NCBI GenBank assembly: GCA_025782575.1
Contig: JALGYY010000004.1
Coordinates: 124,001 to 188,000 of the forward strand
Length of the DNA: 64,000 nucleotides
Reading direction: 5' to 3'
From: a bacterium
Lineage (GTDB): Bacteria > Orphanbacterota > Orphanbacteria > Orphanbacterales > Orphanbacteraceae
Below, one piece after another: positions 22,733 through 64,000 of this stretch. The first letter of the stretch is position 1; each line of letters begins with the position of its first letter. A program made the translations under genes and the position numbers. Below the pieces are notes generated by a model. The model did not search any database, was not told the origin of the DNA, and saw only the letters and a list, made by a program, of their open reading frames with translations.

Positions 22733-24001
22733 TCAGAAGCTGTATCGAAGCCGTGTGAATACGTTGTCGTTTTCGTCGAACTGTCCGAACTGGGTCTCTA
22801 CGTTGTTGCCCTCGAACACATTGGCGCCGATGGCCACCTCGATCTCGTCGGACACCTTGTAGCTCACAAGGCCGCGTAGATGTGTGTCTTCATCTGTCGG
22901 GGACCAGAAACCGAAGAACGAAAGCCGGATCGTCTGATAATGGAGCCACTTTTCGAGCCGGAGCGTGAAGAGGCTCCTGAATTCATCCTGCTCGTAGGCG
23001 CCGGCCGGTAAGTTAGCGGCGTAGTCATCGTGGTTCTGCATCCACTCGCCGTAGTACTGAACCGTCGCGTTGAAGTCGTCGGCCAGTTGCCTCTCGAAAC
23101 CGGCCAGATAGCGTCCCGTTGAGTTGGGGACAAATCCCATCGGGACTTTGCCGGGGTGGGCTTCGAAAGCGTCAGGATCGGGCGCATCCCGGGAGTCGTA
23201 CCAACCCCCTTCGAGCCAGAACACGCCGCCGAGCGAAGCGCCTCGTGCACTCGCGCCGTAGACTCGAAGCCTGGGGTGGAAGGGCATGCCGACACCGTCC
23301 ACCGCAACCGGCGTCTTATAGAACCCGTGATAACCGTAGAGCGCGATCGTCATGTTGCCGACATATCGGGAAAGCCGTACCGCTACTTCGCCGTTCTCGA
23401 TTTGGTCCTCCGGCAGAACAGGTGGTCCCGCCAGGCCCTCCGGCATATAGAACGACAGCCGTTCCCCGGTGGGCAGGCGATCGGGTGTGAATTCGGGCAC
23501 GAGCGCCACGTCCAGGTCGAACGGCAATCCGAACAGGCCGAGCCGAACCGCATCGACCGGCGCTTTCAGATATTGATCTTCCCGTCCGATGAAAAACGAC
23601 ACCCAGTCCTTCGGAAAAAGATCGTTGATGAAAATGAGATCGCCTGTCCCCCAGGTAAGGGCCTGCCGGCCTGCTTTGACGTCGAGGTGATCACCCAAAG
23701 TGGTGAATCGCAGGAATCCTTCCCGGAGGTCCAGCTTGACGCCGTCATCCGCTACCTGGTCGCCAAGCACATCCATGCGAACAAAGATCTCCCCCTGGTC
23801 GCCGTAAGCACTCGCACGAAACTGTACCCGCGTTTCGTTCAGCGTGTACTCTTTTGTGTCGTCGAACCTCGCGCTCTCGGCCGTCCGTGCGCCGTACCCG
23901 GTTTCGACAAATCCGTGCCAGTCAACCTGCGCAGATGCGGGGATCGCCCCCAGCGCACTGAGCGCTAGAATCGAACCGATTGTCAAGTGCCTGCTGTTCA
24001 T
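22733..24001 (-). CDS. Outer-membrane beta-barrel protein (DUF1302-like)
   Basis: 422 residues with a signal peptide (cleavage around AQ at 24-25), alternating beta strands throughout and a C-terminal phenylalanine (LRYSF), the signal for BAM-mediated insertion. The segment AGRQALTWGTGDLIFINDL (about 110-128) matches the DUF1302-type barrel pattern. SD AAGGAGCGACC. It lies directly after the LolA-like gene and the RND exporter, which suggests it is the outer-membrane component or recipient of that export route; this is inferred from operon structure. Confidence 0.78.
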   Translation of the reverse strand: MNSRHLTIGSILALSALGAIPASAQVDWHGFVETGYGARTAESARFDDTKEYTLNETRVQFRASAYGDQGEIFVRMDVLGDQVADDGVKLDLREGFLRFTTLGDHLDVKAGRQALTWGTGDLIFINDLFPKDWVSFFIGREDQYLKAPVDAVRLGLFGLPFDLDVALVPEFTPDRLPTGERLSFYMPEGLAGPPVLPEDQIENGEVAVRLSRYVGNMTIALYGYHGFYKTPVAVDGVGMPFHPRLRVYGASARGASLGGVFWLEGGWYDSRDAPDPDAFEAHPGKVPMGFVPNSTGRYLAGFERQLADDFNATVQYYGEWMQNHDDYAANLPAGAYEQDEFRSLFTLRLEKWLHYQTIRLSFFGFWSPTDEDTHLRGLVSYKVSDEIEVAIGANVFEGNNVETQFGQFDENDNVFTRLRYSF

Positions 24002-59741: not shown

Positions 59742-60740
59742 CTACATACCCAGGTCGAACATCTGCTCCAGCGTCTTGCCCGCTTGCTTTCCGTCTGCGT
59801 AGACAGTGCCGGCAACACCTTTTTCGAAGCGCGCGAGCGCAAGTGCATAGACCGCATCCGGTAGCGGGACATAGCCCACCTCGCTGACAAGAACCGGCGC
59901 ATTCTTCAGGTAGAATCGAATGAACTCGCGGACCTCGGGCCGGCCGGCCGCTTCTGTCGTCACATAGATGAAAATCGGGCGGGCGAGGGGGGCGTAAGTG
60001 CCGTCGTTGATGCTGGAAGAAGAGGGTGCGATCGGCCCGCTTCCACCGTCTATCGGAATGAGCTTCAGCTTGTCTTTGTTCTCCACATAGTAAGCAAAGC
60101 CGAAGAAGCCGAGAGAGTGCACATCACCTGCGATGCCCTGGACGAGAACGTTGTCGTCCTCGCTCGCTGTGAAATCGTGCCGGCAGGACTGCGATTCGCC
60201 GTTGATCGTCTCGGTGAAGTAGTCAAATGTTCCCGAGTCAATTCCAGGGCCGTAGAGCGCGATGGGCTGGTCGGGCCATTCGTTCCGGACGTCTTTCCAG
60301 CTCTTTACCGTACTCCCGGGTTGCCAGATTCTTGTCAGTTCCTCGACCGTAAGGAGGTCGACAAATGCGTTAGTCTTGTGGGTCACAATGGAGATGCCGT
60401 CAAAAGCGACAGGCAACTCGATGTATTCCACGTTATTCTCTTTCGCCTTTTTGTTTTCTACCTGTTTGATCGGCCGGGAGGCGTCATTGATATCCGTTTC
60501 TCCTATGCAGAACTTTTTGAATCCGCCGCCTGTTCCCGAAATACCCACCGTAACCCGGCAACGGGGGTGAACCTTCTGAAACTCTTCCGCAACCGCCTCA
60601 GTGATCGGGAAGACCGTGCTCGACCCGTCGATTCTAATCGTCCCCTTGAGCTCTGACCCGTTCTCATTCGCGCCATTCCCGCCGCACCCGAACAGGACAA
60701 GAGCGCTGAGCACCAATACTGTTTTCGTTGTTCGTCTCAT
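59742..60740 (-). CDS. pstS: Phosphate-binding lipoprotein PstS
   Basis: 332 residues from the ATG at 60738-60740 (AGGAGG upstream). Lipobox LFGC (about residue 19), then the phosphate-binding pattern [32 protein letters not shown], and SGTFDYFTE. The predicted promoter overlaps an 11-bp-phased repeat (60775-60816), consistent with PhoB control. Confidence 0.96.
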
Positions 60741-60774
60741 GATTGGGAGACCTCCTTTCTCTTTCTTACCGGGC

Positions 60775-60816
60775 AAGATACGAAACGAATATTAGGAGGG
60801 TATTAAGAGGGTATTA
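60775..60816 (-). promoter_or_regulatory. Pho-box-like repeat and -10 element of pstS
   Basis: On the plus strand ATTAGGAGGGT (60791-60801) and ATTAAGAGGGT (60802-60812) form an 11-bp direct repeat, followed by a third half, ATTAATTTT. A -10 hexamer (TATCTT on the minus strand, 60775-60780) lies 10 bp away, the spacing seen for PhoB-activated promoters. No -35 hexamer is present. Confidence 0.55.
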
Positions 60817-62601
60817 ATTTTCGCCCCGAGGCGGCATACGGAATAAAAATCGACTTCCCCTGCCCGGCGCGCTCTCTACAGAGACGCTTCCTCCGTGGGA
60901 AAGGGCGATGTGCTTTACAATCGCCAGGCCGAGCCCTGTGCCGCCCAGGTCTCGCGAACGGGCCTTATCTACCCGGTAGAACCGTTCGAATATTCTCGTC
61001 CGGTGGGCTGGATTAATGCCGATCCCGGTATCTTCCACTTCGACAAAGGCGTCACCTTCCTGGTGGAAAACGCTCACTTTCACCTTTCCCTCTTCCGGCG
61101 TGTATTGAATGGCGTTTCCGAGCAGATTGTCGATCAGTTGCCGTAACTCGTCCCGATTGGCGAAGACCTCCACGGGCTTTTCCCGCCTGACGATTACGAG
61201 TTCGATATTCTTGGATATCGCAGCGGGGCGGAATTCATCCACACTCTCATCAAGGAGCGTGCAAAGGTCGACCGGCTCTCGATAGGACTCGTCGTGGCCT
61301 GATTCAAGGCGGGAAATCGTAAGCAAATCGCCGACGAGCGAAGTAAGTCGATGGGACTGATTCTTTACCTTGTTCAGAAAGCCGTTACGCGCCTCCGGTT
61401 CCATCTCTTCATGGTCCAGGACCGTTTCAACCAGCCCTCGTATAGCTGTAATCGGCGTTTTCAACTCATGAGATACGTTGGCCACAAAATCGCTCCGAAT
61501 CGCCTCCAATTGTCTCAGGTCGGTCAGGTCGTGAAGCACCAGCACGGCACCGCCGGTTTCCAGCGGGGTCGCGTGCATTTCCACAATCTGGTCCTTCCCG
61601 TCTCGAGCAATTCTGATTTCCTCTTTCAGTTTCTGCCCGTCCAGCATGGCTCTCCGGATAATTTTGTTCACGGCCTGAAGCCGGACGACCTCCCATATTC
61701 GTTTTCCATCGGAACTTTTGTCGTGAACGTCATTGTCTTTGAGGGTCACTCGTAGAATCCTGCCGGCCGCGTCATTCATATGGAGGATGCGCTCCTCTTC
61801 GTCAACAGCAACGACCCCTTCCGCCATTCCCATGAGAATAGCGAGAAGCTTGTTTTTCTCTTTCGCGGAATCGGAAATGCGGGTTTCTATGCTGGCGGAC
61901 ATTCGGTTGAATGAGCGGGCCAGATCGCCGACTTCATCATTTCCGCCGTGAGGCACCCGCCCCTGACCCTCCCCCTTTGCTATCAACAAGGCTTCCCGGC
62001 TGATCACATTGAGAGGCTTCACGACACGGTAAGAGAGAAGAAGCCCCATAAGGAGCCCCACCAGCGCCGCGAGCCCGGCCATAGTAAATATTGTCGTCCG
62101 AAGACGAACCAACTCAGCATCAACAGCGCTGGTAATAATGGAAGCTCGGACATAACCGAGGAGTTTCCCTGCCCGTTTCACGGGAATGGCGTGATACATG
62201 GTGTTTCGGTTGGCAGTACTGCTGAAGCGCGTGGCGGTTCCCAGCCCTCGATCCCGTGCGTCAAGAATCTCGGGTCGGCGCCCATGATTTTCCATCGTAG
62301 CCGGATCGTTTTCCGAATCGGCTATCACCAGGCCGTCGCTTCTCACTACGGTCAGGCGAGTTTCCAGCGATCTTCCCAGAATCTGGATTCGTTTCTGAAA
62401 GAGAGGATCATCAGCCCCCGTCAGAGGGAGAGCGGCTATGTCGTTCAGCAAGACTACTTTGGCGTGAAGCGATTCCTCTATCCGGCGAAGCGTGTCGACC
62501 CTTACCCGGCTACTGAAGAGAAGCCCGGAGATCGCGGTCGAAGCAAGAATGACCGCGACGTAGCCGATAAAAATCTTGCGCAGGAATCTGGAGTTCAGCA
62601 C
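60814..62601 (-). CDS. phoR: PhoR-type sensor histidine kinase
   Basis: 595 residues from a GTG at 62599-62601 (GGGAG upstream); a longer frame to 62757 is possible but adds a tail with no domain. TM1 10-30, extracytoplasmic sensor 31-168, TM2 170-190, HAMP 191-244, PAS 253-363, H378 in VSHELKTPI, then N-, G1-type DTGIGI and [12 protein letters not shown] boxes. It phosphorylates PhoB under phosphate starvation. No response regulator lies beside it; the next features upstream are the replication origin and dnaA, so the partner must be encoded elsewhere. It precedes pstS by 73 bases. Confidence 0.88.
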   Translation of the reverse strand: MLNSRFLRKIFIGYVAVILASTAISGLLFSSRVRVDTLRRIEESLHAKVVLLNDIAALPLTGADDPLFQKRIQILGRSLETRLTVVRSDGLVIADSENDPATMENHGRRPEILDARDRGLGTATRFSSTANRNTMYHAIPVKRAGKLLGYVRASIITSAVDAELVRLRTTIFTMAGLAALVGLLMGLLLSYRVVKPLNVISREALLIAKGEGQGRVPHGGNDEVGDLARSFNRMSASIETRISDSAKEKNKLLAILMGMAEGVVAVDEEERILHMNDAAGRILRVTLKDNDVHDKSSDGKRIWEVVRLQAVNKIIRRAMLDGQKLKEEIRIARDGKDQIVEMHATPLETGGAVLVLHDLTDLRQLEAIRSDFVANVSHELKTPITAIRGLVETVLDHEEMEPEARNGFLNKVKNQSHRLTSLVGDLLTISRLESGHDESYREPVDLCTLLDESVDEFRPAAISKNIELVIVRREKPVEVFANRDELRQLIDNLLGNAIQYTPEEGKVKVSVFHQEGDAFVEVEDTGIGINPAHRTRIFERFYRVDKARSRDLGGTGLGLAIVKHIALSHGGSVSVESAPGRGSRFLFRMPPRGEN

Positions 62602-62835
62602 GCTTTTCTCCCGGTCTGCCGACCTCGGGCGCCTCTCTTGATTGTAAGGATTCGAGACAACAAAAAGAACCCCGGAAGCGGATTCTTCCAGGAAGCCCGC
62701 CCCGGGGTAAAGGAATCGCAGTCTCGTTTGAAAGCACCGCCCGTCCAGTTTCGGCACTCATCAAACACGATGGGTCCGTTGGCTGCGATTGCCTCTTGAC
62801 TCATTCATACGGACAGTTTGTTTGCCTCTTTCCGG

Positions 62836-63073
62836 ATTCTTTCTTCTTCTTCTTAAAGAGATTTAAAAAAAGAGTAGTAGTAGTAGGGGCTGCGGATATG
62901 TTGACAAGCAGGCCACACGTTAGATTGGTTGCGGGATTACAGTCTTTGGGAGATGGGAAGTTATGTCGGGTCATGTGGACGGTTTTCTAATAACTCTGGA
63001 GTTGTTCACAGGGCGGTGTTTGTCGACAATCGGTCCACAGGCGTATCCCGGTTTTCTGCACAGATTATTCACA
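62836..63073. other. Predicted replication origin (oriC) with DnaA boxes and DnaA-trio
   Basis: DnaA boxes on the plus strand: TTATTCACA (63065-63073, full match to TTATNCACA), TTCTGCACA (63054-63062) and TTGTTCACA (63002-63010), one mismatch each; weaker TTGTCGACAA (63020-63029). On the minus strand TTGTCAACA (62899-62907) is followed by a GC-rich spacer (62887-62898), four TAG trios (62875-62886) and an AT-rich tract (62836-62871). This order of box, GC spacer, trio and AT tract is that of the bacterial basal unwinding system. It lies just downstream of dnaA, as in Bacillus. Confidence 0.8.
62875..62886 (+). repeat. DnaA-trio element, (TAG)4
   Basis: Four perfect TAG repeats between the GC-rich spacer and the AT-rich tract; read away from the DnaA box the strand is 3'-GAT-GAT-GAT-GAT, the motif bound by DnaA on single-stranded DNA. 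Confidence 0.7.
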
Positions 63074-63090
63074 TGGCGAAGGTGGGTGGT

Positions 63091-63317
63091 TCAGCCGACT
63101 TGCCCCGGGCCAGAAATTTCTCGAAGGAGAATGAGCGAGACGAGGCCGGTGGGACCCGAAGAAGCGAAACATAGAAAACGGACGGGGTTAATCAGACCCC
63201 GCCCGTTTTCATGTGGAGATGCTTCGGGCCGGCCGAGCGAGTGAGGCGAGGGGCGACGGTCAGGAGCCCCGGAGCCGGCTCCTTCGAGAGCTTTCTGGCC
63301 CGGGGCAAGCCGGCTGA
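63091..63317. repeat. 227-bp imperfect palindrome with 39-bp arms between oriC and dnaA
   Basis: The arm 63091-63129 and the reverse complement of 63279-63317 agree at 36 of 39 positions. Inside them GGCCGG and CCCGAAG blocks are also repeated in inverted order, and the centre is the hairpin at 63174-63210. The right half carries about 40 extra bases (63235-63278). No reading frame is conserved in either half. Confidence 0.85.
63174..63210. terminator. Bidirectional terminator-like hairpin downstream of dnaA
   Basis: GAAAACGG-A-CGGGGT / ACCCCG-C-CCGTTTTC, a 15-bp stem with one mismatch and a 7-base loop, with an A-run on one side and a T-run on the other, so it could stop transcription from both directions. 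It is the centre of the larger palindrome. Confidence 0.75.
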
Positions 63318-63369
63318 GCCGGACTATTTTGGGTTTTGGTGTTGCAATAGGCTGCGCGCTCGGTCCCTT

Positions 63370-64000
63370 CTACGCTGCGAGCTCATCCGCAAGGCGATCC
63401 AGAATCGACCGGAAGCGGTCGTCCGCGATGGAAAGTCTCTCCACCTTCTGGCACGCGTGCAGAACGGTTGAATGGTCCCGGCCGCCGAACTTGAGACCGA
63501 TCTGGCTGAGCGAGAGGCCGGCCAGTTGCCGAGTGAAGTACATCGCCACCTGACGGGCGAGGGCGATATCCGCCGTGCGCCTCCTCGACAGAATCTCGTC
63601 GACCGACACATCGTAATGTCCGGCGGTTACCCGGATGATGTCACGCACGGTGGCCTTGTTCGTTCTCCGCGAGAGAAAGTCCTTGAGTACGTCTCTTGCG
63701 AGATCGACGGAGAGATCCTGACCCGTAAGTGAGGAAAAGGCGAGGAGCCGGATGAGCGAGCCTTCGAGCTGACGAATATTCGAGCGAATCGATCGAGCGA
63801 TGAAGAGCAGAACATCGTCCGGGATAGAGAGATTTTCGAGCTCGGCCTTCTTCCTGAGAATGGCAATTCTGGTTTCGAGATCGGGCGAGCCGACGTCTGC
63901 GACCAGACCCCATTCAAATCGGGATATGAGGCGCTCCTCCAGGTTGGCGATTTCCTTCGGCGGGCGATCACTGGTAAGCACGATCTGCTTTTTGGCATTC
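63370..64000 (-). CDS. dnaA: Chromosomal replication initiator DnaA, 5' end beyond the window
   Basis: About 210 C-terminal residues are visible; the frame stays open to the right edge. The AAA+ end includes ANLEERLISRFEWGL (sensor II/box VIII region) and RSNIRQLEGSLIRLLAF; domain IV carries the DNA-binding signature LARQVAMYFTRQL...GGRDHSTVLHAC. DnaA melts the origin at 62.8-63.1 kb. The gene reads toward the origin and toward the dnaN operon on the same strand. Confidence 0.97.
   Translation of the reverse strand, partial: NAKKQIVLTSDRPPKEIANLEERLISRFEWGLVADVGSPDLETRIAILRKKAELENLSIPDDVLLFIARSIRSNIRQLEGSLIRLLAFSSLTGQDLSVDLARDVLKDFLSRRTNKATVRDIIRVTAGHYDVSVDEILSRRRTADIALARQVAMYFTRQLAGLSLSQIGLKFGGRDHSTVLHACQKVERLSIADDRFRSILDRLADELAA

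Follow-up and report, generated by a model that had tools for sequence, protein, structure and literature searches.

The large palindrome between dnaA and the origin region oriC is best explained as one copy of a lineage-specific, dispersed and non-coding repeat, comparable to REP and MITE sequences, that was inserted at this site, with a hairpin that would end transcription and arms whose pairing would be kept up by repair or selection. We give this reading as a whole a probability of roughly 0.7. The palindromic-repeat interpretation follows from the dispersed copies of the palindrome's interior, its absence between dnaA and oriC in six relatives, the architecture common to the copies, arms that change and yet remain paired, and an enrichment of copies between convergent genes.

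According to this reading a copy of the element would have arrived between dnaA and oriC by insertion. Its hairpin, in which each strand has an A-tract and a T-tract, would stop transcription of dnaA ahead of the origin, and transcription from the opposite side would likewise be halted before reaching it. The pairing of the arms would be upheld by hairpin-templated repair during replication, by selection for the hairpin or by both, and selection acting on a single RNA strand is presumably not involved. The striking structure beside oriC is then a repeat that has landed there and not a part of the origin.

The palindrome downstream of dnaA

Within the window, that is the whole stretch of 64,000 nucleotides that was analysed, the nested palindrome covers 63088-63320 and is, at 233 bp, slightly wider than first noted (Table 1). 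The original prediction described arms of 39 nt with 36 matches, a central hairpin of 15 bp, and a location between oriC and dnaA less than 20 bases from the nearest DnaA box. All three statements were borne out: the 39-nt arms lie inside arms of 42 nt that are complementary at 38 positions, the central hairpin has 15 pairs and resembles a terminator, and the nearest DnaA-box-like site is 14 nt away. On the other side, 49 nt separate the right arm from the stop codon of dnaA, which runs leftward. The predicted fold has an energy of -156.9 kcal/mol on the + strand and -146.2 kcal/mol on the - strand (z = -13.0 and -13.2, respectively, against shuffled sequence), and no shuffled sequence folded equally well. 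The palindrome is the sole strong long inverted repeat of the window. The next one (23458-23662, 25 nt, 80% matched) was rejected, as it looks like a chance match inside coding sequence. An assembly artefact, which the original prediction had allowed for, is unlikely as the source of the palindrome because the same core is present at numerous other loci, the two arms do not match perfectly and the palindrome is internal to a contig of 231,768 bp.

Table 1. Positions in the window of the palindrome's parts and of neighbouring features.
Feature	Position	Strand	Remarks
DnaA-trio-like sequence TAGTAGTAGTAG	62875-62886	+	from sequence; adjoins AT-rich 62841-62874; recognizable in relatives
Second DnaA-box-like site TTGTTCACA	63002-63010	+	from sequence and box scan
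Nearest DnaA-box-like site TTATTCACA	63065-63073	+	from sequence and box scan; 14 nt from left arm; origin feature, outside the element
P1 5' side, left outer arm	63088-63129		42 nt, 90% complementary to 63279-63320; from fold
Conserved 5' block AGGAGAATGAGCGAGACGAGGCCGGTGGGACCCG	63125-63158	+	recurs elsewhere in the genome
P2 inner stem (GCCGG...CCGGC)	63145-63233		surrounds the terminator-like hairpin; from fold; conserved in subfamily I copies
Terminator-like hairpin GAAAACGGGCGGGGTCTGATTAACCCCGTCCGTTTTC	63174-63210	- (dnaA direction)	15 pairs, A-tract and T-tract; from terminator scan
Conserved 3' block GGGCCGGCCGAGCGAGTGAGGCGAGGGGCGACGGTCAGGAGCCCCGGAGCCGGCTCC(T)	63226-63284	+	recurs elsewhere in the genome
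P3 small side hairpin (GGGGC...GCCCC)	63250-63270		from fold and family structure
P1 3' side, right outer arm	63279-63320		from inverted-repeat match and fold
dnaA, 3' part	63370-64000	-	209 aa inside the window; stop codon 63370-63372

The central hairpin has the form of an intrinsic terminator, namely a GC-rich stem followed by a T-tract at the end of a gene. It lies downstream of dnaA and reads in the direction of dnaA transcription (63210 to 63174, - strand), and the same layout of A-tract, stem and T-tract can be read directly from the sequence of the + strand. The T-tracts are short (TTTTC), and the terminator scan of the region gave 2 matches versus 1.0 expected in shuffles, about one standard deviation above. 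By the same kind of scan, a plain terminator-like hairpin is located just after dnaA in two relatives, and none was found in two others. In our interpretation this copy of the palindrome probably serves as the stop signal for dnaA before oriC, and a repeat inserted behind dnaA would now act, or be able to act, as a terminator. The hairpin with its A-tract and T-tract is what the site has in common with bidirectional intrinsic terminators. Unlike these, however, it sits in a nested palindrome of 233 bp, far bigger than termination requires, which recurs genome-wide.

Copies, anatomy and distribution of the family

The interior of the palindrome (about 63125-63284) is a member of a dispersed family. 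Twelve copies served to build a covariance model, with which at least 32 copies were found in the same genome at a cut-off of E<=0.01, a count that comes from a draft of 49 contigs and depends on the models, with degenerate copies surely missed. The copies are intergenic, and many are degenerate. Among the explanations offered in the original prediction, that of a mobile palindromic repeat is the one favored by the dispersed core and its absence between dnaA and oriC in the relatives. The search for further copies of the 39-mer that it had proposed gave a divided answer: no DNA copy of the outer arms turned up elsewhere in the genome, and the interior does recur, in dispersed form and without connection to oriC.

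Of the 32 copies, 12 are situated between convergent genes, compared with 15.6% of gene pairs (p 0.002) and 20% of intergenic bases (p 0.018), where the gene contexts are the calls of a simple home-made gene caller based on codon usage. This enrichment can mean either a function at gene ends or a tolerance of insertions there. The placement agrees with that of REP repeats, which are mostly found between unidirectional and convergent genes (PMC3733652).

A full copy consists, in order, of a P1 arm, the 5' junction strand, P2, the 3' junction strand, P3 and the second arm, and in most copies the P1 arms reach about 31-46 nt outside the core. Both junction strands are conserved, the 5' strand as GAATTAGCGAGACGAG and the 3' strand as CGAGCGAGTGAGGCGA, each with variants. 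P2 exists in two main kinds, by which subfamilies I and II are distinguished. In subfamily I, to which the window copy belongs, P2 bears a hairpin with an A-tract before the stem and a T-tract after it; in subfamily II it bears a GGGGACACAATAC...GTATTGTGTCCCC palindrome. Two copies (L084, G000:C2:690564-690648; L090, C28:30195-30272) are without the P2 stem and have the two conserved strands almost directly joined, possibly because P2 was deleted or excised.

A broader model detected two clear copies of the same architecture in a sister genus (G001) and no clear copy in five other genomes of the phylum. A 23-base pattern searched over 84,980 genomes gave 13 scattered single matches, none of them convincing with model R1, and model R2 was run over 386 genomes, of which almost all lie outside the phylum. 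The sole match outside the phylum (G055, E 9e-5) was rejected on inspection, having no long arms and the wrong architecture. No DNA match to the element was obtained in a phage collection or a plasmid collection.

That the element is mobile is suggested by its dispersal, the closest relatives being other genera. A target-site duplication was not seen in the comparison of flanks (3.88 versus 3.64 under random pairing). Nor was any transposase found that is tied to the core, and the core model had no match at the four Y1_Tnp loci.

Arms that change and remain paired

The six close copies of subfamily I share a 150-nt core that is on average 88% identical, and the identity of their left arms is 34%. 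For subfamily II the values are 83% for the cores and, for the arms, 59% on average and up to 83%. At positions six or more from the core, pairing within P1 was 0.898 versus 0.464 when right-arm letters were shuffled between copies; the pairing was obtained by local alignment, which favors matching letters, so that the observed value is somewhat flattered, and the difference from the shuffled value is large.

We tentatively suggest that each arm is rewritten from the other by hairpin-templated copying when the DNA replicates, whereby the sequence would drift between copies while complementarity stays. If so, and we advance this with the same reserve, the family would represent concerted evolution within palindromic arms of 31-46 bp in more than 20 copies of one genome. 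That stems can stay paired through template switching during replication is already known, and the arms of the element, altering in sequence yet remaining complementary, behave as hairpin-templated repair predicts (PMC8794818). However, that report concerns RNA genes, whereas the arms described here are part of a dispersed repeat for which template switching is a candidate. Having many copies in which the core is conserved and the arms vary freely yet remain paired, the family constitutes a natural test of the persistence of long palindromes, and it bears on the question of whether compensatory changes in stems arise via selection at the RNA level or via template switching in DNA replication.

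Alternatively, the arms could be derived from the target, either because the core enters the loop of existing palindromes or because insertion makes an inverted duplication of the flanks. This proposal is a rival on how the arms evolved, not on the repeat itself, and we find it doubtful. It would account for the six subfamily I copies, where the arms, at 34% identity, differ roughly as much as unrelated sequences do and the cores are 88% identical, but it does not sit well with the mutual homology of the subfamily II arms or with arm ends that lie near flanking genes and seldom inside them. Moreover, within 1.19 Mb (contigs C2 and C42) the element or the GGGGACAC repeat motif was carried by 15 of 15 clusters of long palindromes, none being free of a repeat-family motif. 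Since all of the clusters bear such a motif, it is unlikely that the arms represent ordinary genomic palindromes hosting the core. The same count makes it unlikely that the structure is left over from a termination region that was duplicated or inverted, as the original prediction had also considered.

A different explanation for the whole element is that it encodes a structured RNA, a small RNA or a 3'-UTR module under selection for its fold, of which the dnaA copy would be one gene. The strong covariation in P1, the conserved junction strands and the second genus with the same architecture are in line with this, and we nevertheless judge it improbable. Selection on one RNA strand should leave a marked surplus of G-U on that strand, but mismatches in the arms comprised 33 G-T and 24 A-C, a near balance that does not clearly speak for such selection. 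Furthermore, the Rfam 15 covariance models gave no match at E<=1 in positions 60000-64000 of the window, a scan found no promoter-like site near the palindrome, and many copies are degenerate.

The DNA at 62841-63073 of the window forms a compact oriC-like region, composed of an AT-rich stretch, a DnaA-trio-like sequence of TAG repeats and DnaA boxes, and other genera of the phylum also have a recognizable region of this kind downstream of dnaA. The interval after dnaA in six relatives (G001-G006) has AT-rich sequence with a TACTAC-type trio, along with sites resembling DnaA boxes, and in none of the six does it contain a palindrome. A role of the palindrome in origin control (as a cruciform, a fork barrier or a switch of DnaA accessibility beside oriC), which the original prediction had brought up, is unsupported and very improbable: the DnaA-box-like site just 14 nt away and the very stable hairpin that the palindrome could form speak for it, but the relatives keep a recognizable origin without such a palindrome, and the other copies are spread across many contigs next to unrelated genes.

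Relation to known repeats and to a tyrosine transposase

Like the REP and TIR repeats (RAYT, TIRYT; PMC3733652), the element is a dispersed intergenic palindrome present in many copies. Unlike REP/REPIN (RAYT) or TIR (TIRYT) sequences, its core and arms make up a separate, larger sequence that has no GTAG or CGTC tag and no GGGGWSAS at its own ends, which vary between copies. The core is also without an associated Y1 transposase gene; it is the GGGGACAC repeats that flank a Y1_Tnp gene instead. A similar comparison can be made with the MITE-like repeats of bacteria (ERIC/IRU, Correia/NEMIS, RUP and YPAL; PMC2229807), which are likewise short, non-coding, dispersed, intergenic and hairpin-forming. 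The element differs from these in that its terminal inverted arms are not the same between copies (34% identical in subfamily I) and that no target-site duplication was found.

Two further origins were considered and set aside. For a retron, no match to the core model was found near the sole RVT_1 gene, which looks to be of the group II intron type. The genome contains no other RVT_1 match than this gene (L203; G000:C45:4480-5079), whose open frame of 436 aa by eye resembles a group II intron reverse transcriptase. A link to TnpB guide RNAs is unsupported, since no TnpB-type (PF07282) protein was found in the genome.

The GGGGACAC repeat is of the tyrosine-transposase type and often nested inside P2; relative to the element it is always either nested or flanking, and the dnaA copy has none inside. 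The GGGGACACAATAC motif represents a separate repeat that matches the genome 57 times in forward and 57 times in reverse orientation, mostly arranged as palindromes (e.g. L038; G000:C2:15512-15568), and this inverted-repeat family fits the GGGGWSAS motif of tyrosine-transposase terminal repeats (PMC3733652). A search of one full-text library returned no paper with GGGGACACAATAC. One Y1_Tnp (RAYT/TIRYT-like) gene (C5:52257-52586) is flanked by the GGGGACAC repeat. Transposase repeats nested in another element provide a useful case for studying how composite palindromic repeats originate. In one copy (L006; L074 / G000:C39:42317-42667) the nesting is reversed, and an outer pair of GGGGACAC repeats encloses the element as if it were carried between them.
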